Of a stretch of DNA of 64,000 nucleotides, positions 47,281 to 63,869 are shown in pieces. The translations under genes were made by a program, and so were the position numbers. Numbering within the stretch: position 1 is the stretch's first letter; each line of letters starts with the position of its first letter. Source of the DNA: Zasmidium citrigriseum (lineage: Eukaryota; Ascomycota; Dothideomycetes; Mycosphaerellales; Mycosphaerellaceae); assembly GCA_002786025.1 (NCBI GenBank), contig NHNW01000049.1, positions 124,001 to 188,000 of the forward strand, in the 5' to 3' direction. The notes beneath the pieces are model-generated. The model had not been told where the DNA came from, did not search any database, and saw only the letters and a list, made by a program, of their open reading frames with translations.

Positions 47281-50200
47281 ATGGATCTCCGGACGTACGT
47301 CTCCGACCACTTGATCAAGCTGGTCGGAGGCAGCGAGGACATGATGGTCGACTTCGTGCTCCAAACCGCGAAATCAGCAAAGTCGCCTGGAGCTCTGTTG
47401 GACAAGCTGTCTGGCATGCTAGACTCTGGAGACGTGGACTTGAAACGATTCAGCGATGACCTATATTCCCGAGTCACCAAGCCCTCGTCGAATGGAACAT
47501 CGCTACCGAAGCGCGACAAGCCCAAAGAAAGCAAGAAAAAGTATGCGTTGGTGGAGATGGAAGTTGAGGATGAGGCCCCACCTCCGAGAGAAGAGCGAAA
47601 GAAGGATCGTGATGGTGAAAGAAAGTCGAAGCATCGATCAGATCGGGAGAGACGGCGGTCGAGAAGTCGAGAACGGCCAAGCAAGAAGTTGAGGCGAAGA
47701 GACGACGGCGATTTTGACGATCGATGGGGCGACGGCGACGAGGAAGAAGGTGAAGACTTTCCCTCACCTCCAGCCAAACGAACGAGATTCGACGATGGAT
47801 CTCGGTCCCCGCGTCGAGAGGGTCCAGAGCGAGAGGAAGAAGATGAGGAAGAGCGAGATCGAAGAGAACGTAAGGCGTTCGAGGAGCGGCTGAAGAACAA
47901 GGATGCTGGTTCTACAAAGAAGATCGTGGAGGATCGCTCCTCACACAGAGAGGCAGCCGATGCTGAGCGGAGGGCACAGGCTGGCAAGCTGTCTGCAGAA
48001 GAGATGAAAGCGTTGAGGTTACGATCAAGACAAGACTACTTGAAGAAACGATCTGCTCAAGAGCTGGCTCTTCTGAGGAGACAGGTCGCAGACGAAGCAG
48101 AGGAGGAGCGCAACAATCCAAATTTGACGCAGTCAGAGAAAGATGAATTTGCTCGCAACCGAGAGGCTCTGCGCCTGGCAGAGGAACGAGAAGGAATCGA
48201 CGACCATTATGATGGATATGCGATGCCAGAAGACTACATCACAGAGAAGGGCAAAATGGACACGAAGCGGAAACAGGACGCTTTGTACAGTCGATACGTG
48301 GATCGAGACGAGCAGGGTCGGGAACGATACGTGACCGAGCATGAGGAATGGGAGCGAGAGCAGCTGGCCAAGACCAAGGCGCAGATCATTGTTGCAGACC
48401 GCGTGAATGAGGGAGACTACGAATATGTGTTTGATGAAGAGCAACAACTCAAATGGGTCACAGATGCAACGATGCAAGGCGGCATGAGCAAGATGCAGAG
48501 CCAAGAAGAACGGCTGATGGCCCAACAACTCATTGCTGCAGAACGAAAAGCGAAGACGATCGAAGAGAAGCGGAAGACCTTGCCAGTCTACCAATATCGA
48601 CAAACATTCCTGGACGCCGTGGCCGAATACCAAATCCTCATCATCGTTGGTGAGACCGGTAGTGGAAAGACCACTCAGCTACCGCAATACCTGTACGAGG
48701 CAGGCTATTGCGAGAAGGGCATGAAAGTTGGCTGCACACAGCCACGTCGTGTCGCTGCCATGAGTGTCGCAGCTCGTGTAGCTGAAGAAATTGGCGTCAA
48801 AGTGGGCAATGAAGTCGGCTACGCCATTCGTTTCGAAGATGCCACCTCGGACAAAACCAAATTGAAGTACATGACGGATGGTATGTTACTTCGTGAGTTC
48901 TTGACTGAGCCCGATCTTGGCGGATACAGCTGTCTCATGATCGACGAGGCTCACGAGAGAACGCTACACACCGATATCCTGTTCGGTCTTGTGAAGGACA
49001 TCGCACGTGGAAGGCCAGACTTGAAGCTATTGATCTCCTCAGCTACTCTCGATGCGCAGAAGTTCAGTGAGTTCTTCGACGACGCCCCGATTTTGAACAT
49101 TCCCGGACGAACGTACGACGTCGAGATGAACTACTCACTCCAGCCTGAGGCAAACTATCTCTCGGCAGCGATAACAACAGTCTTCCAGATTCATTTGTCT
49201 CAGCCGATGCCGGGAGATATTTTGGTATTCTTGACTGGTCAAGACGAGATCGAGCAAGCAGAGCAGTCGTTGCAAGAAACTGCAAGAAAGCTAGGATCTG
49301 CGGCGCCAGAGTTGATGATATGTCCCATCTACGCCAACTTGCCCACTGATCTCCAGCAGAAGATCTTCGACCCCACGCCACCAAAAGTACGGAAGGTCGT
49401 TCTGGCAACGAATATTGCAGAGACTAGTTTGACTATCGACAACATTGTCTATGTCATCGATCCTGGGTACGTGAAGGAGAACAGATATACACCTGTCACC
49501 AACATGGAATCTCTTGTCGCAGTTCCCATATCTCGAGCTTCCGCAAACCAGAGAGCCGGCCGAGCTGGACGTACAGGACCCGGCAAGTGCTTCAGGTTGT
49601 ACACCAAGTGGGCGTATTACAACGATCTTCCAGAGAGCACCACTCCGGAAATCCAGCGAACAAACCTCATGAGCATCGTCCTCCTCCTAAAGTCCCTCGG
49701 CATCAACGACCTGATCAAGTTCGACTTCATGGACCCCCCCAGCCCAGACATGCTCATCCGGTCCCTCGAACAACTCTACGCCCTCGGCGCCCTCAACGAC
49801 AAAGGCGAACTGACCAAAATCGGTCGTCAAATGGCCGAATTCCCCACGGATCCCATGCTCGCCAAAGCCGTCCTAGCCGCCGACAAAGAAGGCTGCGTCG
49901 AAGAAGTCCTCTCCATCATCGCCATGCTCGGCGAAGCCAGCGCCCTCTTCTACCGCCCCAAAGACAAGAAACTCCAAGCCGACGCCGCCCGCGCCCGCTT
50001 CACAGTGAAAGAAGGGGGCGACCACCTCACCTACCTCAACATCTGGAACCAATGGGTCGACAGCGACTTCTCCTACGTCTGGGCGCGCGAAAATTTCCTC
50101 CAGCAACGCTCCCTCACCCGCGCCCGCGATGTCCGCGACCAACTCGCCAAACTCTGCGACCGCGTCGAAGTCACGCTCTCGACCTGCGGCGCGGCCAACA

Positions 50201-50514
50201 TCCCGCCCATCCAACGCGCCATCACGGCGGGCTTCTTCCCCAACGCCGCGCGCCTCCAGCGTAGCGGGGACTCGTACCGGACTGTCAAGAATAATATGAC
50301 GGTGCATATTCATCCTAGCTCGGTGTTGATGGATGTCAGGCCCAAGTGGGTTATCTTTTATGAGTTGGTGTTGACGAGTAAGGAGTTTATGAGGAGCGTT
50401 ATGCCGCTTAAGCCGGAGTGGTTGACCGAGTGTGCGCCGCATTATTATAAGAGTGGGGAGGTCGAGGCGCTTGGGGTTGATAGGGCGATGCCGAAGATTA
50501 GGGGGGCGAAGTAG
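47281..50514 (+). CDS. prp2: DEAH-box pre-mRNA-splicing ATPase, Prp2/DHX16 type
   Basis: 1,077 residues, single exon. The N-terminus (1-70) resembles the DHX16 N-terminal domain, followed by a long Arg/Glu/Ser-rich segment (about 75-220) and helical linker. Helicase motifs: I GETGSGKT (about 457), Ia TQPRRVAA, II DEAH (555-558), III SAT (587), IV FLTGQDEIE, V TNIAETSLTI, VI QRAGRAGR (about 757). These are followed by the winged-helix, ratchet and OB regions and a C-terminal MPLKPEWL block. Prp2 activates the B-act spliceosome before the first step of splicing, in the nucleus. Length and motif spacing fit Prp2/Cdc28 rather than Prp16, Prp22 or Prp43. Third-position usage changes abruptly near 50,250 from C-ending to G/T-ending codons while the frame stays intact (see findings). 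Confidence 0.93.
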   Translation: MDLRTYVSDHLIKLVGGSEDMMVDFVLQTAKSAKSPGALLDKLSGMLDSGDVDLKRFSDDLYSRVTKPSSNGTSLPKRDKPKESKKKYALVEMEVEDEAPPPREERKKDRDGERKSKHRSDRERRRSRSRERPSKKLRRRDDGDFDDRWGDGDEEEGEDFPSPPAKRTRFDDGSRSPRREGPEREEEDEEERDRRERKAFEERLKNKDAGSTKKIVEDRSSHREAADAERRAQAGKLSAEEMKALRLRSRQDYLKKRSAQELALLRRQVADEAEEERNNPNLTQSEKDEFARNREALRLAEEREGIDDHYDGYAMPEDYITEKGKMDTKRKQDALYSRYVDRDEQGRERYVTEHEEWEREQLAKTKAQIIVADRVNEGDYEYVFDEEQQLKWVTDATMQGGMSKMQSQEERLMAQQLIAAERKAKTIEEKRKTLPVYQYRQTFLDAVAEYQILIIVGETGSGKTTQLPQYLYEAGYCEKGMKVGCTQPRRVAAMSVAARVAEEIGVKVGNEVGYAIRFEDATSDKTKLKYMTDGMLLREFLTEPDLGGYSCLMIDEAHERTLHTDILFGLVKDIARGRPDLKLLISSATLDAQKFSEFFDDAPILNIPGRTYDVEMNYSLQPEANYLSAAITTVFQIHLSQPMPGDILVFLTGQDEIEQAEQSLQETARKLGSAAPELMICPIYANLPTDLQQKIFDPTPPKVRKVVLATNIAETSLTIDNIVYVIDPGYVKENRYTPVTNMESLVAVPISRASANQRAGRAGRTGPGKCFRLYTKWAYYNDLPESTTPEIQRTNLMSIVLLLKSLGINDLIKFDFMDPPSPDMLIRSLEQLYALGALNDKGELTKIGRQMAEFPTDPMLAKAVLAADKEGCVEEVLSIIAMLGEASALFYRPKDKKLQADAARARFTVKEGGDHLTYLNIWNQWVDSDFSYVWARENFLQQRSLTRARDVRDQLAKLCDRVEVTLSTCGAANIPPIQRAITAGFFPNAARLQRSGDSYRTVKNNMTVHIHPSSVLMDVRPKWVIFYELVLTSKEFMRSVMPLKPEWLTECAPHYYKSGEVEALGVDRAMPKIRGAK

Positions 50515-50881: not shown

Positions 50882-51534
50882 ATGTTCCTCTTCAACCTCC
50901 TCGCCTCCTTGGCCCTCCTCCTCACCTTCTGCGTCCACATCACCACCGCCGACTTCCTCATCTACGGCCGGCACGAATCGCCAGCTGACCCCGACGCCGA
51001 ACCCCCCTACCTGTTCGAATCCATCACGTTCTTCGAAGGCCCGCCCTCGTGCGACGACGTCTGCGACACCAAAGCGACCTATGCACCGAAAGAAGATGTC
51101 AACAAGGTCGAGGGTGTGAGATGTGTGGGGTGCGATGTAAGTATAAGTAACATCCTCAGGACATATGAATGACGAGTGAATGGAATACTGATCACATACA
51201 GTCTGGCCCCGTCGCGGACTGGGACATCAAGGAGCTGGAGTTCCACCACACGAGTAACGAGACTGTCCACGGTGAGTTGCATTGGACGCTGTACGGTGAG
51301 TTTTCCCTTTTCCCCACAACGTCTTTGCGGATTCTGACGAGCAAGACAGGAAGCTCGGGATACTACCTCACGCCCGCGGATGGATCTGAACTGAAGGGAC
51401 AGTGTGAGCGGGTCAGCGATGATGACTTCGACTGTGACTGTGTCCTTATTGAAGGATTCCCGGCTCGTCGTATGCAGGGCGCGAAGCTGTTTTCGTGTTC
51501 GACGGTCTACGTCTACGATGATGTGGATTGGTAA
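50882..51534 (+). CDS. Small secreted cysteine-rich protein, 3 exons
   Basis: Exons 50882-51136, 51202-51295 and 51350-51534 give 177 residues. Introns are 65 and 54 bp with GTAAGT and GTGAGT donors and CAG acceptors; the frame is kept at both joins. A signal peptide is clear: a long Leu/Ala-rich core (MFLFNLLASLALLLTF) with cleavage probably after residue 23 (TTA|DF). The mature protein has eight Cys, in the pairs SCDDVC, RCVGC and DCDC plus two singles, an even number compatible with four disulfides. No domain recognised. Size, secretion and Cys content fit a candidate effector or wall-associated protein, but no function can be stated. A second GTGAGT lies inside exon 2 at 51272 and could give a shorter isoform. 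The gene follows prp2 on the same strand by 367 bp. Confidence 0.8.
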
Positions 51535-56243: not shown

Positions 56244-56576
56244 CTAGCCCTGGCACTTTGGAATGTCCTGACAGATGGGATAGCTACCTGCAAACAAACT
56301 ATCAACTTCGTGCAAACTGGTGGAAAGACGTCTGCATACAAGCATCGACAGCGTTGCACTGCCTCTTCTCAAGGTCCCTCTTGGCTTGGCACTTTGGGAT
56401 GTCCTGGCAAATTGGATAATTGCAGGCATCGACAGCGCTGAGGTCCCAGGTTGTCAGCTATGCTGTGTTCCGTACGCAGGGCGAGGTATCACTCACTTGC
56501 ATTGCCTCTTCTCAAGCTCAACTGGAGAAGCAAAAGCAACGGCCACGACGGCCGAGATGATCAATGTGCGACGCAT
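56244..56576 (-). CDS. Kex2-processed two-repeat secreted cysteine-peptide precursor, 3 exons
   Basis: Exons 56576-56497, 56437-56340 and 56287-56244 give 73 residues. Intron 1 (59 bp) has GTGAGT, a CTGAC branch-like site and CAG; intron 2 (52 bp) has GTATGC and TTTGCAG. A signal peptide (MRRTLIISAVVAVAFAS) is followed by PVELEKR, then repeat 1 (20 residues, QCNAVDAC...), the spacer AKRDLEKR, and repeat 2, which differs only by Asn to Ser at position 9 and ends with one Gly. Each repeat has four Cys in the spacing C-x5-C-x4-C-x5-C and is preceded by a Lys-Arg site for Kex2. Repeats of 60 nt differ in eight codons silently and in one codon by replacement, strong evidence for coding function. 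Precursors of this layout are known as Kex2-processed repeat proteins and include pheromones and ribosomal peptide toxins or signals; this one matches none I know. No UstYa/DUF3328 gene is nearby. Confidence 0.82.
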
Positions 56577-57044: not shown

Positions 57045-58374
57045 TTAGTAGCCACTCTTGGCCAAGAACTGATGAGCTCGCCTCATGCTCTCAGGAGCGC
57101 TGTAGTGCAAAGTGGTGGCGTGCGAAGTGTTCGGGGGCACTGCAATCGGTCAGTCGAAGCCCTTGAAGATTTCCCATCCGACGAAAGACTTACAGTAGTA
57201 GTCATAGTTAGCCAACGGGAAGAAAGCCTTGCTCTTCGCCGGAATACTATCACTTCCAGTGCCACAAGACTGAGGACCGAGAGCCCTGCTACCCGTAGGG
57301 CCGCAGAAGAAAGCCTGCAAGATCAATCAGCTCGAAGCCCAAAAGAACATCACTCTCGCTCTTACATCTTCCTGTCCAGTCAACGCAAAAACATCCCCAA
57401 TGTACCTATCCGCCCTCTCAAGCCCCGAAAAAGCCGAATAAATCTGTCCAATCGTAATAGTATCCTCATGATCAAAGTCCCAATCCGCAAGAGCCTGGCT
57501 AAAAGCCCCATCATCCCCATAATAAGAATCCCGCTTGCCTTGTCGAGAGCCAAAAGCGAGGTATCCAGGTGGGAAAGAGCCGAACTTCGCTGGATTCTGG
57601 ACTTGAGCCGGTTCCAAGAAGGTCAAGAGCAAGCCGAGTCCAGCTTGAATGAGAGTATCGGTCCATCCGGTCAAAATCATGGCGTCGAAGTCTGCTGGGT
57701 AATGAGTTGCGATTCCGTTGCCGATAACGGAGGCAAGGGAATGGCCGACGAAGATGACCTTTTGGGCTTTTGGGGCGAAGGAGAGTTGGCCGGCTCGGAG
57801 CATTTGGATGATTTGGTGGACGATTGCTGTTTGGAGAGGTTGTTGGACTTCTGTGATTGGGTTGGCTTTTTGGGAGTCACCGGCTCCTAGGTTGTCAATG
57901 GCCAGGACGGGGTAGCCTTGTTGGGTTGCGTATTCGACCCAGTCGTATTTGGCCGTGCCGTCTGGGTTGCCTGGGAGGCCGAACCAGTAGCTCTGAGTAG
58001 AAGGCGTGTTAGCTTTCGATATTGATGGAGGAAAGTCTCGTTGCTCATACCATGTTGTAAGGAACGCCATGAAGAAGCAACTGGACCTCACTCGACCTTC
58101 CAGCTGGTGCTTTGGGATTCTTCGCTGGCTGACAGTACTTGGCCGCGATCTGGTAGGTTCCTGAGACTGGGAGCAGTCCCGCCAGTTGTCCCAGGAAGCC
58201 GGCTCCAGAAGAGAGGAAGGACTCAACGCCGGATGGCGACGTCAAGTCGTAGTTAGGAGCAAAAATGACTCCATTGTTCGCAGAAGTCTTCACAGGAATT
58301 GTGTGAGAAGCACATGATGCTGCCCATGCTGGTGCAGCAGATAAAATGGTGACAGCCAACGCCTTCGTCAACAT
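57045..58374 (-). CDS. Secreted alpha/beta hydrolase, 4 exons
   Basis: Exons 58374-58051, 57992-57366, 57314-57194 and 57139-57045 give 388 residues. Introns are 58, 51 and 54 bp (donors GTATGA, GTAAGA, GTAAGT). The signal peptide is MLTKALAVTILSAAPAWAA. The first exon holds EVQLLLHGVPYNM, then SYWFGLPGNPDG (start of exon 2), the strand VLAIDNLGAGDS, and the nucleophile elbow VGHSLAS with Ser193. The last exon supplies PPNTSHATTLHYSAPESM, with His364 the probable catalytic His. The last two exons were not visible as long open frames and were found by following the family pattern. Members of this fungal family are secreted esterase/lipase-like enzymes of unknown substrate. The plus-strand open frame 56745-57890 that overlaps it is a shadow. 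Confidence 0.85.
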
Positions 58375-58788: not shown

Positions 58789-59748
58789 TCACGACTTCTG
58801 ATCCCTCAGCATCTTCCCTTCCTTCAGAATTGCCTCCGCTTGCCGTTTGAGATTCCGCATCTGGGGACTCCGCAATACATTTTCAATCATCAACAGCTCC
58901 GTGGGTACACACTTCATCAGTATTTTAGCTTCGAGCCACACGTCGACGTGGTCGGCGTTCTTAAGCTCTTCATCGAAGGCTTCGAGATACTTCTCAATAG
59001 CCGGAGTCCCGTTAGGTTTGAGACCCGTGCGCTTCAACAGATTTACAACATCGACTGCTTCTCGATAGCGGTTCGAACAGTCCTTGAGGATGTCGTAGAC
59101 GGGGTTGGACCTCTTCAAGACATGGGTGCGGCCCGGCGTCGAAGAAGTGACCAGCGGCCGCAGCTTGCCCAGGTATCTGAGAAGTTTGTCGACCTTCTTT
59201 TGCCTGTAGCCACCCTGAAGCATGGCGCTAGCGTCTACGGAAAGACTCACGGCCTCTGTCGGGTGGAGTGCTGAAGCGAGGGCTCTCATGATGTGCTTGA
59301 TCTGCTTGGACAGCTGGTCGGCGCGGAAGGGGTGATGAGGCTTGACGACGCTGAATCGAAGAATCACACGTTTGATGGTGTCGAGTCCTGACGGAAGGTC
59401 CTTGAGGATAGTAAAGGCAGATACTACCTCGTCCGCTGGTTGCTGGAAGACGATAGAGGTTCCGATCGTGAGTGAGAGCGCATTTCCTGCGCTTTGGACG
59501 TGGAAGAGGACGTGATTCTTCTTCTTCTCCATCTCTACCATCGCCTCATCATGTATCTCCTTCGATGTCAACAGGATATCAGGGTGTCTAGGTTCTTGCG
59601 CTGAGTGGGCGTCGCGCACGAGCAAGTAATCGTAGATGGCGATGCGCAGTTCCGGCGGCAGGGTGAAGATGTAATTCGGCTTGTGTGAGTTGACTTGTTG
59701 TGGCATCCCCGAGTTCTCATCGGTCGACTTGAAGGTCGCAGAGGCCAT
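58789..59748 (-). CDS. F-box-like paralog 1 of tandem array
   Basis: 319 residues, single exon, ATG at 59748. The motif FTLPPELRIAIYDYLLVRD (about 28-46) is the degenerate F-box-like start, followed by EPRHPDILLTSKEIHDEAMVEM. The remainder is predicted helical and basic, with a Lys/Arg-rich C-terminus. The EPRHPDIL...IH.EAM block is shared with the next gene (61252), showing that the two are paralogs. No leucine-rich repeat or other partner domain can be recognised. A role in SCF ubiquitin ligases is possible but not shown. Confidence 0.82.
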   Translation of the reverse strand: MASATFKSTDENSGMPQQVNSHKPNYIFTLPPELRIAIYDYLLVRDAHSAQEPRHPDILLTSKEIHDEAMVEMEKKKNHVLFHVQSAGNALSLTIGTSIVFQQPADEVVSAFTILKDLPSGLDTIKRVILRFSVVKPHHPFRADQLSKQIKHIMRALASALHPTEAVSLSVDASAMLQGGYRQKKVDKLLRYLGKLRPLVTSSTPGRTHVLKRSNPVYDILKDCSNRYREAVDVVNLLKRTGLKPNGTPAIEKYLEAFDEELKNADHVDVWLEAKILMKCVPTELLMIENVLRSPQMRNLKRQAEAILKEGKMLRDQKS

Positions 59749-60334
59749 TTCGGTGGTACGGTCGGCGACTTGTCGAAGGAGATAGGTTCAAATGATGTCG
59801 CAGAGTGCGTGAGGTTGATCAGCTGAGTAGTGGCGGCTTGGAGGTGAACTGGGATTTCTGTGAACTGTATTCGCTGGGCGATGAGGGTCTTACAACATGT
59901 AGATTATATATGCTCGGAATGGGATGAGTCAAACAGCATAGAGTAATTCTTGAATTTGATTCGCCCGTGGCTGCGAAAATGTGTATCTCGTGAGTGGTTG
60001 ACGCTTTCCAGGGGCTTGGGAAGTTGCGTACCACCGTTACTACTTTCTCGTTGATGACCACTCCCTCGGGCCCTACTACATAAGCTTGGTTGAGTCAATC
60101 ACAACACTGGACATGGTAAAGAAATGCAATCAATAAATGGCCCCCTGATCTAACATCAACTCAATGCAACTACTACGAACAATGCTATATTTACGCGTGA
60201 AGCCGAAGCATTCTCATGATCTAGCCCACTCAATGTAACACCCTCGTCTGATACAGGCCTAACTTCCCTCCTTGCCGTGCCCTTTTCCCAAAACACAGAC
60301 AAGAAGACCAAATGCCAACCTAATATCACTTCAA
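59749..60334. other. Intergenic region, no gene seen
   Basis: 586 bp between tandem paralogs. Overlapping minus-strand frames of 64-80 codons are present but share no motif with the neighbours. Presumed promoter of the 59748 gene and 3' end of the 61252 gene. Confidence 0.5.
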
Positions 60335-61252
60335 TCACATCTCCATACCCTCACTCTTCTCAATCCGCTCCGCTTCTTTCTTAAACCGCCTTACCGGCGC
60401 CCAATCCAAAGCATTCTCAACAGCCTTCAAATACTCCAAATGCACTTTCGTGGTCACCTCGGTGCCGCGCCCAGTACGTGACATTATGGAACGAGCCCTC
60501 TCGACCGCATGCTCCACACTTCGCAGACCGTCCGGCTTGACACCCGGCTTCAAGAGGTCGATCAGATCCTCCGCCTCCTGCTCGAGAGCCCAGAGTTCTC
60601 TGAAGAGATCGCACACGCCCGTCGTCTTGGGATAGAAGTGCGAGGACTTGGCCATGGGGTTGGGATTCGCCATCAAGGGGCGAAGTTCTGAGAGACCGTC
60701 TCGCATGCCGTTGATCGTGGAATCAGCATATCCAACATCCCGCAGAAAGCTGTCGTCGAAGTTGAGTTCCACGTGCTCTTCATCATTGAAAGCCGACGTA
60801 AGAGCCTCCAAAACCTCCCAGGCCTGAAAACGCAGAATCGCAGACCTGCTCGTCTCAACAAACGGAATCTCAACCTTCAAATTAATCCGACGAATCTCAT
60901 CAAGACCACCAGGCAAATCTCGGAAAATGGCGTACGCCGGGATGAAATCGCTGTCCTTCTCGAGGTCAAACGATACGTCGAACCACACGTTAGGTCCGAT
61001 GGTGAGAGTCAGCCGAGCCGTTGTATCGACCAGTGTCCCACGAATGAGGAACTGCACTTCGTCCCAGAGGTTGATCTCGCCCATGGCCTCGGTATGAATG
61101 AAGTTGCAAGTGGAGAGAATCTGCCGATGGCGCGGGTCTTCTGCCGTGGTCCTGTCGTGGATGAGGAGGTCTTGCCAGATCTGAGCGCGGAGCTCCGGGG
61201 GCAGGGCCGTCAAGTGGCAAGGCTCAGCGGAGGTGTCTGTGTGCTTCTCCAT
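60335..61252 (-). CDS. F-box-like paralog 2 of tandem array
   Basis: 305 residues, single exon, ATG at 61252. LTALPPELRAQIWQDLLIHD (about 14-33) is the F-box-like motif; DPRHRQILSTCNFIHTEAMGEI follows and matches paralog 1 closely. A DLPGGLDEIRRI stretch (about 114-125) matches DLPSGLDTIKRV of paralog 1 at a similar place. A 'GVKPDG' / 'GLKPNG' match near residue 235 extends the similarity to the C-terminal third, so the whole proteins are homologous. Function unknown. Confidence 0.82.
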   Translation of the reverse strand: MEKHTDTSAEPCHLTALPPELRAQIWQDLLIHDRTTAEDPRHRQILSTCNFIHTEAMGEINLWDEVQFLIRGTLVDTTARLTLTIGPNVWFDVSFDLEKDSDFIPAYAIFRDLPGGLDEIRRINLKVEIPFVETSRSAILRFQAWEVLEALTSAFNDEEHVELNFDDSFLRDVGYADSTINGMRDGLSELRPLMANPNPMAKSSHFYPKTTGVCDLFRELWALEQEAEDLIDLLKPGVKPDGLRSVEHAVERARSIMSRTGRGTEVTTKVHLEYLKAVENALDWAPVRRFKKEAERIEKSEGMEM

Positions 61253-61676
61253 CTCCTCGGTAGATGGTAAGAGTATGCTGGAGGCTACTCCGATTGCGTG
61301 GACAGTTTGGCTGAGACGGAGATCGATGCGGTGTTGGAGTTCGTGTGAGTGGTAATCGCGGCGGGAGATCGAGGCTGGGAAGCGAGAGAATAAATCTTGA
61401 GGTTCAGCAGAAGATGAGGGCAGGGTGGTATTTATCCCCTAGAAATGCAAGCCTTTCATACACATTCGTTGTCGTATCCGGAAAGGGAAATTCGTGACTT
61501 TTCCTGTCGTCTCTGAAGTTGCTTACCACCTCGGGCACCCGTACCACAGCCTCGTGCCATGGCTCGACCAACGACGTGCAAGGCATTATCACCTCCAACC
61601 AGAAAATATAGCTCCAACTCCAAAATCTCCAGAACATGATCCGCCAAGAGTGGTAGTCTGGCAATTGTCGCCTCCA
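61253..61676. other. Intergenic region, no gene seen
   Basis: 424 bp between tandem paralogs; presumed promoter of the 61252 gene. No gene supported. Confidence 0.5.
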
Positions 61677-62558
61677 TCAGATCCATCCTGCCTCACGCCC
61701 CCGGCGTCGATGCTCCTCCAACGCCTCCGCGCAAAGCATCATGTCGTCAAATCTCTCCCGCAACATGAGGCGCCTCAGATTTGTAGTTCCCATACAGACT
61801 CGCTCATCCGTCCATTCGCGATGATACTCCAGATTGTACATTTGGCCACAGATCTTATCAACGGATGCTGTAACTGCCTCCCGTCGGGTATCGTCCGTGA
61901 TCGAGTTGGCATAGTCCCTCACGTCGAAGATGGTCTTGAACCACTGAAGCAGAACTTTGTCCGTGGACGTCATGCCAACTTCAGAGGGATTTTGCGCTTG
62001 GCGGTGCACTTGGAAATCCGTCTTCGTCTTGTGGTGTTTGAACGTGATCTCTTTCTCCGGACAGAGGTCGGCCAGCGGTTGAAGGGCAGAGCAAATCACA
62101 GGGATCTCCTTCTTCCAGAGCGAGACATTGACAGTCTTAAGATGCGTTGCGGAAATCAGTGCAGCCAGCGCAGAGCACTGGAAGCGAACCTCGTGCGAGT
62201 CGAGATCTTCAGCGATAATAACGGCTCTCAGGCGACGGAACTTCGCAAGGCAGGGTGTGGACAAGAGCTCCAGTGTCGAACCAAGACTTCTCCGTGCAGT
62301 GAGCCAATTCGACTCGCTGTACCGGCCAGGGACTTTGAGCGTCTGCAGGGAAATGCCGCGTGGGCAGGCGATGGTGATCTCGATTTGATTCTCTCCATAA
62401 AGCACATCTTCCGCCTCTTTCCTCACGAGCTTGCATGTCCTCAGGATTGCGGTCTGTGGGCCGCGACATGGTTCGGCCCAAGTATCGACGACGAGGAGTT
62501 CTCTGTACACGAGGACGCGGAGTTCGGGAGGCAATTTCATGAACTGGGTGAAAGACAT
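61677..62558 (-). CDS. F-box-like paralog 3 of tandem array
   Basis: 293 residues from the ATG at 62558 (MSFTQFMKLPPELRVL). The open frame continues upstream to 62648 only via a TTG codon, so the shorter start is preferred. The F-box-like motif lies at about 6-24, then ILRTCKLVRKEAEDVLYGENQI. The KEAEDVLYGEN block is identical in paralog 4, and QPLADLCP / TFKHHKT near 190-210 correspond to QPLIDLKS / TFKDADT there. A WFKTIFDVRDYANSI segment matches WFKTIIELEKVSCSI in paralog 4. The two form a closer pair than with paralogs 1 and 2. Confidence 0.8.
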   Translation of the reverse strand: MSFTQFMKLPPELRVLVYRELLVVDTWAEPCRGPQTAILRTCKLVRKEAEDVLYGENQIEITIACPRGISLQTLKVPGRYSESNWLTARRSLGSTLELLSTPCLAKFRRLRAVIIAEDLDSHEVRFQCSALAALISATHLKTVNVSLWKKEIPVICSALQPLADLCPEKEITFKHHKTKTDFQVHRQAQNPSEVGMTSTDKVLLQWFKTIFDVRDYANSITDDTRREAVTASVDKICGQMYNLEYHREWTDERVCMGTTNLRRLMLRERFDDMMLCAEALEEHRRRGREAGWI

Positions 62559-62888
62559 GTTGTGGACAAGCGATTGATTTCCGTCCAGGTTCAAGGATCG
62601 TAGAAAACAGCAAAGCAGTGAGTGGAATCTTCTGAGGAGGGATCGCAATCAGGGAAAGCGAGAAGAATTTTGAATTGGGTTTCGATTTTGAAAAGTCATG
62701 CGCACATACTCCTTGGTATTTCAGGAGTATGGTGCCCACAGACTTGACCGTAACCCACCGCATGGTTGGATCCGGGCACCGGTTCGGTCGCTTTAGTCGT
62801 GAGGATGGGCCAGTCATATACCCCTGGTAGTCATCCCTTCTCTCGAAGCTGTTGTGGTATTTCGTGTGCAACAAGGCTTCTCATGCGC
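62559..62888. other. Intergenic region, no gene seen
   Basis: 330 bp; presumed promoter of paralog 3 and 3' end of paralog 4. Confidence 0.5.
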
Positions 62889-63869
62889 TTAGTCCTGGCC
62901 CTCTTCTGTGGAGATCGCCTTCTTCTCGTCTGCCAGCACTTTCTTCAGAAGCTCGGTCACTTCGCACACCAGCTCTTCGCCTTTCGCATCGTACAGTGTT
63001 TTATTATCGCAGATCGTGCTCTTGATGACCTTGATCTTCTCTTGGAAAGCAAGCCGTCGCTCGTCGTCTGCTATCGAGCAGGAAACCTTCTCGAGTTCGA
63101 TGATGGTCTTGAACCACTCCGCAAGGGTGTCGTTCGCGCTGCGACTCGGGTGATCGGTAAGAGGCGCCAACGAATCCAGAGACAACACTTCCTTTGTGTC
63201 CGCGTCCTTGAATGTCATGTTGATGCGGGACTTGAGGTCGATCAGGGGTTGCAGCGCATGGTGACCGGCCGCTGATGTGTAGGCGTGTAAGCCACCCATG
63301 AGGTGGACCGTAACATTTCGACATGCGCTCTGTTCGAGAAAGGTGGAGAGGACCGAAGTTTGGAAGCGTGTAGCCTGCAACGGGGACTGAGGATCGAGAA
63401 GGTTGATCAAGACCTTCATGCGACCGAATTTCCCGAGAAGAGCCGTGTACATCTTGAGCGGCACACTCACATCGCGACTGTTCTTCCAGCTGTTCCAAAC
63501 AACGCTTCGCTCTGGCAGGCAAGTGCACAGCGTGTATCGACCATCCGCAGCAATCAAGAGGGCAATGAAGGCCTCATTTTCGCCGTAGAGCACATCCTCG
63601 GCTTCCTTCTTGACCATCTTGTTGGAGCGTAGTATGGCAGTTCTTCCACGTCGTTGGCTCGCGAACACCTGCCGATACACAAGGAGGCGCAGCTCGGGAG
63701 GCAGGTCCATGAACCGATGGAAGGTGGCGTTGCGATCGAGTTTGAGAAGAGCGGCAATATACCTGTCCCTCGGGCGTCCTCGACGACGGACTTTGCTCAC
63801 ATCTCCCATGCGACTCTCCACAAACCCTTGCAATTCTTCCGTCGTACAGGTGTCGTAGCCGTGATACAT
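62889..63869 (-). CDS. F-box-like paralog 4 of tandem array
   Basis: 326 residues, single exon, ATG at 63869. An N-terminal extension of about 50 residues (TTEELQGFVESR..., then a basic RRRGRPRDRY patch) precedes FMDLPPELRLLVYRQVF. The extension is reminiscent of the SAP-like start seen in other fungal proteins, but this is weak. ILRSNKMVKKEAEDVLYGENEA follows, matching paralog 3. The C-terminus is Lys/Glu-rich and helical. If the start were instead MDLPPELR-proximal, the extension would be lost; the ATG at 63869 is the first in frame. The remaining 131 bp to the window edge would be its promoter. Confidence 0.8.
   Translation of the reverse strand: MYHGYDTCTTEELQGFVESRMGDVSKVRRRGRPRDRYIAALLKLDRNATFHRFMDLPPELRLLVYRQVFASQRRGRTAILRSNKMVKKEAEDVLYGENEAFIALLIAADGRYTLCTCLPERSVVWNSWKNSRDVSVPLKMYTALLGKFGRMKVLINLLDPQSPLQATRFQTSVLSTFLEQSACRNVTVHLMGGLHAYTSAAGHHALQPLIDLKSRINMTFKDADTKEVLSLDSLAPLTDHPSRSANDTLAEWFKTIIELEKVSCSIADDERRLAFQEKIKVIKSTICDNKTLYDAKGEELVCEVTELLKKVLADEKKAISTEEGQD

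Follow-up and report, generated by a model that had tools for sequence, protein, structure and literature searches.

The locus described here raises a plain question: does a short, intron-interrupted span on the reverse strand encode a secreted precursor of two small, cysteine-rich peptides and, if it does, to which kind of fungal peptide would they belong? We studied it within the window, that is, the whole 64-kb stretch of DNA presented above, which lies on contig C93, and searched the genome from which the window comes (44.4 Mb, 148 contigs). The gene is likely, with a probability that we put at about 0.8, to be a secreted two-peptide precursor, a reading drawn from the sequence.

Gene structure and precursor layout

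A sequence-only reading had proposed a gene with two short introns and a 73-residue translation, and our reconstruction agreed with its coordinates, its introns and its translation base for base (Table 1). The 222 nt of joined exons translate to MRRTLIISAVVAVAFASPVELEKRQCNAVDACNYPICQDIPKCQAKRDLEKRQCNAVDACSYPICQDIPKCQG, in which a signal-peptide-like start is followed by EKR, QCNAVDACNYPICQDIPKCQ, the spacer AKRDLEKR, QCNAVDACSYPICQDIPKCQ and a last G. The putative signal peptide, judged by eye only, has a basic start (RR), a hydrophobic core and A-F-A before the cut. The two 20-residue copies are identical at 19 of 20 positions, both with the C-x5-C-x4-C-x5-C spacing that had been claimed for them, and each is preceded by LEKR, for which the codons are also identical. 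The repeat unit may be taken to reach position 21, which is Ala in copy 1 and Gly in copy 2, the C-terminus of the latter being Gly-stop and not a Kex2 site. The Kex2-repeat layout that had been read into this span is well supported by the sequence.

Table 1. Coordinates in the window of the proposed peptide gene and of its parts
Feature	Coordinates	Strand	Description
Whole coding span	56244..56576	-	ATG 56576-56574, TAG 56246-56244; 3 exons; 73 residues once spliced
Exon 1	56497..56576	-	80 nt; signal-peptide-like MRRTLIISAVVAVAFA, pro-segment SPVELEKR, start of repeat 1 QC(N)
Intron 1	56438..56496	-	59 nt; GTGAGT...CTGAC...CAG; splits codon 3 of repeat 1
Exon 2	56340..56437	-	98 nt; remainder of repeat 1, AKRDLEKR spacer, repeat 2 nt 1-22
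Intron 2	56288..56339	-	52 nt; GTATGC...TTGAT...CAG; splits codon 8 of repeat 2
Exon 3	56244..56287	-	44 nt; remainder of repeat 2, Gly, TAG

Silent divergence between the two copies

A recount of the two 60-nt repeats gave the figures reported before, namely 10 base differences in 9 codons, 8 of these codons being silent and one exchanging Asn and Ser. By codon position, 9 of 20 third positions differ as against 1 of 40 first and second positions (Fisher p 9e-5). When 10 random substitutions were simulated, at most one amino-acid change resulted in 0 of 200,000 trials, and in 38 of 500,000 trials when 90% of the substitutions were transitions, odds which need multiplying by a small factor because the reading frame was picked after the fact. 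This silent-biased divergence lends good support to the earlier suggestion that selection has probably acted on the mature peptide. A third member of the repeat, contained in the repeat listing (23 nt at 56245-56267, 65% alike), was taken as chance.

Two scans of the window, the first covering both strands, showed how unusual this pattern is there. Identical 7-residue words at most 500 nt apart, with at least 2 differences in their DNA, were found 5 times (after exclusion of words that contained a stop or were built from fewer than 4 kinds of residue); the 5 overlap and all belong to this gene, whereas 6-residue words gave 13 pairs, several of them outside it. The second scan took 88 ATGs with a hydrophobic start and built 127 spliced or unspliced protein models of at least 40 residues, using a crude hydrophobicity filter and a limited set of donor and acceptor motifs; a repeated 8-residue word was present in 5 of them, all 5 from the ATG of the peptide gene. 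One could suppose that the locus is a product of chance or a pseudogene remnant, a decayed non-coding duplication, and the absence of a homologue in the protein collection (see below) would suit this view. It is nevertheless very improbable, given that the divergence is silent except in one codon and that the frame, the splice sites and the Lys-Arg sites are all intact.

Comparison with an alpha-pheromone-like precursor of the same genome

Searching the genome for C..PGQ.C gave 20 matches against 6 in a reversed control. Eight of the 20 are clustered on the reverse strand of contig C20 (G000:C20:17689-18858, L038-L045), where they share a single long frame that has a hydrophobic start, repeats GYIFRCGVPGQACNKR and EAEA-like spacers, and the remaining 12 are scattered and by eye not precursor-like. 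By its motif, the C20 locus looks like a canonical alpha-pheromone precursor. It also contains degenerate cysteine variants near Kex2 sites, e.g., CGTPGALC, CGVPGATC, CEQPGSAC and CATESC. The pattern WC...GQ.C, which was tried as well, had 8 scattered matches against 4 in the reversed control, none of them precursor-like by eye.

The C20 repeats provide a yardstick for the divergence described above. For the 8 repeats fitting G[FY]IFRCGVPGQACNKR, the 28 pairs differ on average at 0.29 of third positions (maximum 0.5) and at 0.017 of first and second positions (maximum 0.031), the latter figure being low partly by construction, since the pattern admits F/Y at one site only and omits the degenerate variants; the third-position figure is the informative part of the yardstick. 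The values of the peptide gene, 45% for third and 2.5% for first and second positions, fall within these ranges, and at the level of sequence the comparison supports a real, long-preserved peptide gene.

The peptide gene resembles ascomycete alpha-type precursors in being an apparently secreted, multi-copy product with Kex2 sites, cysteines within the peptide and silent divergence of the copies. It differs from them in having four cysteines per peptide where they have two, and in lacking both a PGQ core and EA/XA spacers. Alpha-pheromone types of Dothideomycetes are presented in PMC6339444, where one example carries PGQ, and neither a two-cysteine PGQ-like core nor the PYGxPxG of Pleosporales is found in our peptide. 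As the same source, in the part drawn on here, gives one to 16 copies for alpha-pheromone precursors, two copies are in themselves nothing unusual. A sexual alpha-pheromone, one of the roles previously suggested, is unlikely because contig C20 already carries a canonical-looking precursor and because the peptide has four cysteines and lacks PGQ. A broader possibility within the two-peptide precursor reading is a self-signal, hormonal or mating-related, other than a canonical alpha-pheromone: the architecture and the silent divergence are like those of the genome's own pheromone-like precursor, and purifying selection fits a conserved receptor. Four cysteines, the missing PGQ core and the absence of an XA/XP dipeptide after the cuts leave no pheromone signature, and we regard the self-signal as a possibility of less than even odds.

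Introns inside the repeats

Each intron interrupts one copy at a site where the other is continuous: repeat 2 runs through the site of intron 1, and repeat 1 through that of intron 2. Since the sites differ between the copies, the introns were gained after the duplication or differentially lost. The alignment of the repeats also bears on the boundaries. Removing 59 nt from repeat 1 has a single best fit to repeat 2 (27 of 32, with a runner-up at 26), and this is the GT-AG placement. Intron 2 can be placed in six ways that match repeat 1 equally well (29 of 36), one of them GT-AG and one GC-AG; the repeat alignment does not single out its boundary, a point that counts against the model. The donor of intron 1 is GTGAGT, and its branch-like CTGAC has the A 16 nt before the intron end; intron 2 has the donor GTATGC and TTGAT 14 nt before its end. 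Retention of intron 1 leads to an immediate stop (QCK*), and retention of intron 2 leaves repeat 1 whole.

Introner-like elements are known from Fulvia fulva and Dothistroma septosporum, according to the part of PMC4457414 consulted. No further copies of intron 1 or intron 2 were found across the own genome at E up to 10. Because each intron matched only itself, they could, as far as searched, be older members of such a family but not recent ones.

Homologues, paralogues and genomic setting

In the protein collection, the 73-residue precursor had no candidate with three 5-residue words in common, and a 157-residue query with extra copies gave 0 matches at E 10 or better among 8,000 candidates scored. 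PDB and Pfam returned 0 matches at E up to 10. The collection does include proteins of Mycosphaerellaceae, among them helicases similar to that of the window (47281-50514), whose nearest named entry among the best 120 of 1,940 matches is from Zasmidium cellare (85% across the stretch compared), the next-nearest being from Lecanosticta, Dothistroma and Cercospora. By this measure the fungus is Mycosphaerellaceae-like; a search for 5.8S rRNA gave no match on which an ITS identification could be based. The large silent divergence suggests that the gene is old, and relatives should therefore carry a homologue, the lack of which may reflect an annotation gap or true absence. It is plausible that genome annotation misses the split gene, since no matching protein was found in the collection.

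A degenerate DNA pattern for ICQDIPKC occurred in one stretch of genome_contigs, in the MAG of a cyanobacterium, where translation of some 500 bases on and around the site gave no further copy, and was taken as chance; it occurred 0 times in viral_contigs, both sets being non-fungal and possibly omitting records close to the window's genome. Within the own genome no second locus was found, the leader, the repeat and the whole-locus DNA each matching this locus alone. Such paralogue counts are lower bounds, because few candidates survive the first look, and at the sensitivity used the gene is single-copy as far as searched. In the literature, covered through titles and the starts of abstracts and with subscription papers mostly outside, no paper naming this peptide or a two-copy, four-cysteine Kex2 precursor was found.

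Upstream, the peptide gene is flanked by an alpha/beta hydrolase (57327-58374, reverse strand; Abhydrolase_1 above cut-off), with a signal-peptide-like exon 1 and, on manual reading, a short intron GTATGA...GCTAAC...CTCAG of the same kind as those of the peptide gene. At 58789-63869, on the same strand, four adjacent open frames encode 305-326 residues and all contain LPPELR in the first third; for three of the four the 2EXR family matched weakly, below the cut-off, which suggests a local tandem family. A possible second small secreted protein lies at 50882-51534 on the forward strand, with a hydrophobic start followed by CDDVC and CVGC; an overlapping downstream frame has more cysteines, so that there may be two exons, and no Pfam match was found.

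The taxonomic setting bears on a further possibility within the two-peptide precursor reading, an effector secreted against a plant or another host and supplied as two copies of a small disulfide peptide. Among the named entries in the best 120 of 1,940 matches, the window's helicase is nearest to those of Mycosphaerellaceae, a family with many plant pathogens. Against an effector, the copies are near-invariant and lack the diversification that effectors often show. Kex2-processed repeat effectors are described in the review PMC8528282, in the portion used here. The effector, too, has somewhat less than even odds, and we consider self-signal and host-directed effector about equally likely.

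Proposed processing, fold and activity

From the layout we infer the splicing of the precursor in vivo, its cleavage and trimming, its disulfides, its fold and its function. The signal peptide would direct the precursor into the ER, where the four cysteines of each copy would form two disulfides. In the Golgi, kexin would cleave after each Lys-Arg (EKR, AKR and LEKR), and a carboxypeptidase would remove the basic ends to leave QCNAVDACNYPICQDIPKCQA and QCNAVDACSYPICQDIPKCQG, each about 21 residues long, ending in QA and QG and possibly cyclised at their N-terminal Gln. The average masses calculated for the reduced forms are 2297.61 and 2256.56; two disulfides would take about 4.03 off each value, and pyroglutamate about 17.03. 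Once released, they would serve as extracellular ligands, for the producing fungus, a host or a competitor, and not for membrane lysis; we lean towards this ligand role.

The cysteines at positions 2, 8, 13 and 19 are mirror-symmetric (2+19 = 8+13) around a four-residue turn, NYPI or SYPI. We tentatively propose, short of favouring it, a ladder beta-hairpin with the pairs C2-C19 and C8-C13; with an even spacing of 6 in either arm, the two disulfides would come to lie on the same face of the hairpin. Asp6 would stand opposite Asp15, an unfavourable arrangement that counts against this fold.

A hairpin of this type brings to mind an antimicrobial or a toxin directed at competitors. The familiar antimicrobials of hairpin type are cationic; here that charge is absent, both peptides having a computed pI of 4.21 (reduced, unmodified form), with one Lys and two Asp each. 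The suggested antimicrobial role is unlikely in its cationic, membrane-lytic kind because the peptides are acidic, and we give a beta-hairpin antimicrobial or toxin in general a small chance. What speaks for it is a resemblance to a tachyplesin-like spider peptide, C-x3-C-x4-C-x3-C in the part of PMC11728142 used, which has the same nested symmetric cysteines, four-residue turn and Gln-Cys start, and to gomesin, for which PMC13001179, in the part used, gives two disulfides and an N-terminal pyroglutamate. Our peptides differ from both in having five-residue arms instead of three, in being acidic and fungal and in coming from a Kex2 tandem precursor, and the comparison is an analogy only, which implies no sequence relationship.

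Relation to other Kex2-processed peptides

The closest layout is that of the Kex2-processed repeat proteins (KEPs; Le Marquer 2019, Umemura 2020), with which the gene shares a signal-peptide-like start, near-identical peptides bordered by Lys-Arg and a short spacer. The near-identical copies reach the minimum of 8 residues asked of peptides between Kex2 sites, and the producing genome has a kexin candidate, with one P_proprotein (P-domain) match (E 1.4e-29) in an open frame of 874 residues whose translation is subtilisin-like on manual reading. The repeat size is within the class of 9-24 residues, given in PMC6339444, in the part used, as the commonest in most Dikarya. The differences are the two copies, the four cysteines per copy and the introns within the repeats. 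As far as their consulted parts state, both surveys demand at least 3 repeats (PMC6339444, PMC7329392), so that a two-copy gene would be skipped and stands outside the formal definition; we infer that this gene would work like a KEP all the same. The part of PMC6339444 used mentions cysteines for two-cysteine pheromone-like peptides only, and the text of PMC7329392, apart from its supplementary tables, has no match to 'cystein' or 'cys'.

The Kex2-repeat precursor is also reminiscent of the ustiloxin/phomopsin-type dikaritins, which would make the product a cyclised RiPP. There are 43 UstYa (DUF3328) matches in the genome, several per contig on, e.g., C129, C119, C112 and C76; because genes are matched exon by exon, the number of genes is below 43, and the matches may mark ustiloxin-type RiPP loci elsewhere. 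None of the 43 is on contig C93, and the EDYXI core, given for the dikaritin type in the part of PMC6339444 used, is lacking. In the consulted part of PMC7329392, 22% of Kex2-repeat genes have a DUF3328 gene nearby, at a mean distance of 3.09 genes where present, and with so low a share the missing UstYa is by itself weak evidence. Despite the shared layout and the UstYa-family matches elsewhere, we think a cyclised RiPP of this type highly unlikely.

Significance

The two-peptide precursor is a testable secreted-peptide gene that falls below the threshold of two published surveys and is intron-split within its peptide-coding repeats, and its offset introns present two events of gain or loss within a single duplicated unit. 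It may, although we think this rather doubtful, be the first to be noticed of an overlooked group of fungal ligands of the ladder-hairpin kind, encoded in two copies, split by introns and stabilised by disulfides. Each gene of such a group would be old and single-copy, with its peptide kept under strong purifying selection and with introns that arose independently in the two copies, and repeat-based surveys would be unable to find it. If expressed, the gene would define exactly which peptide of about 21 residues to synthesise, and with which predicted disulfide pattern, and would suggest a search rule, built on splicing, two copies and silent divergence, by which more fungal signals or effectors could be found.
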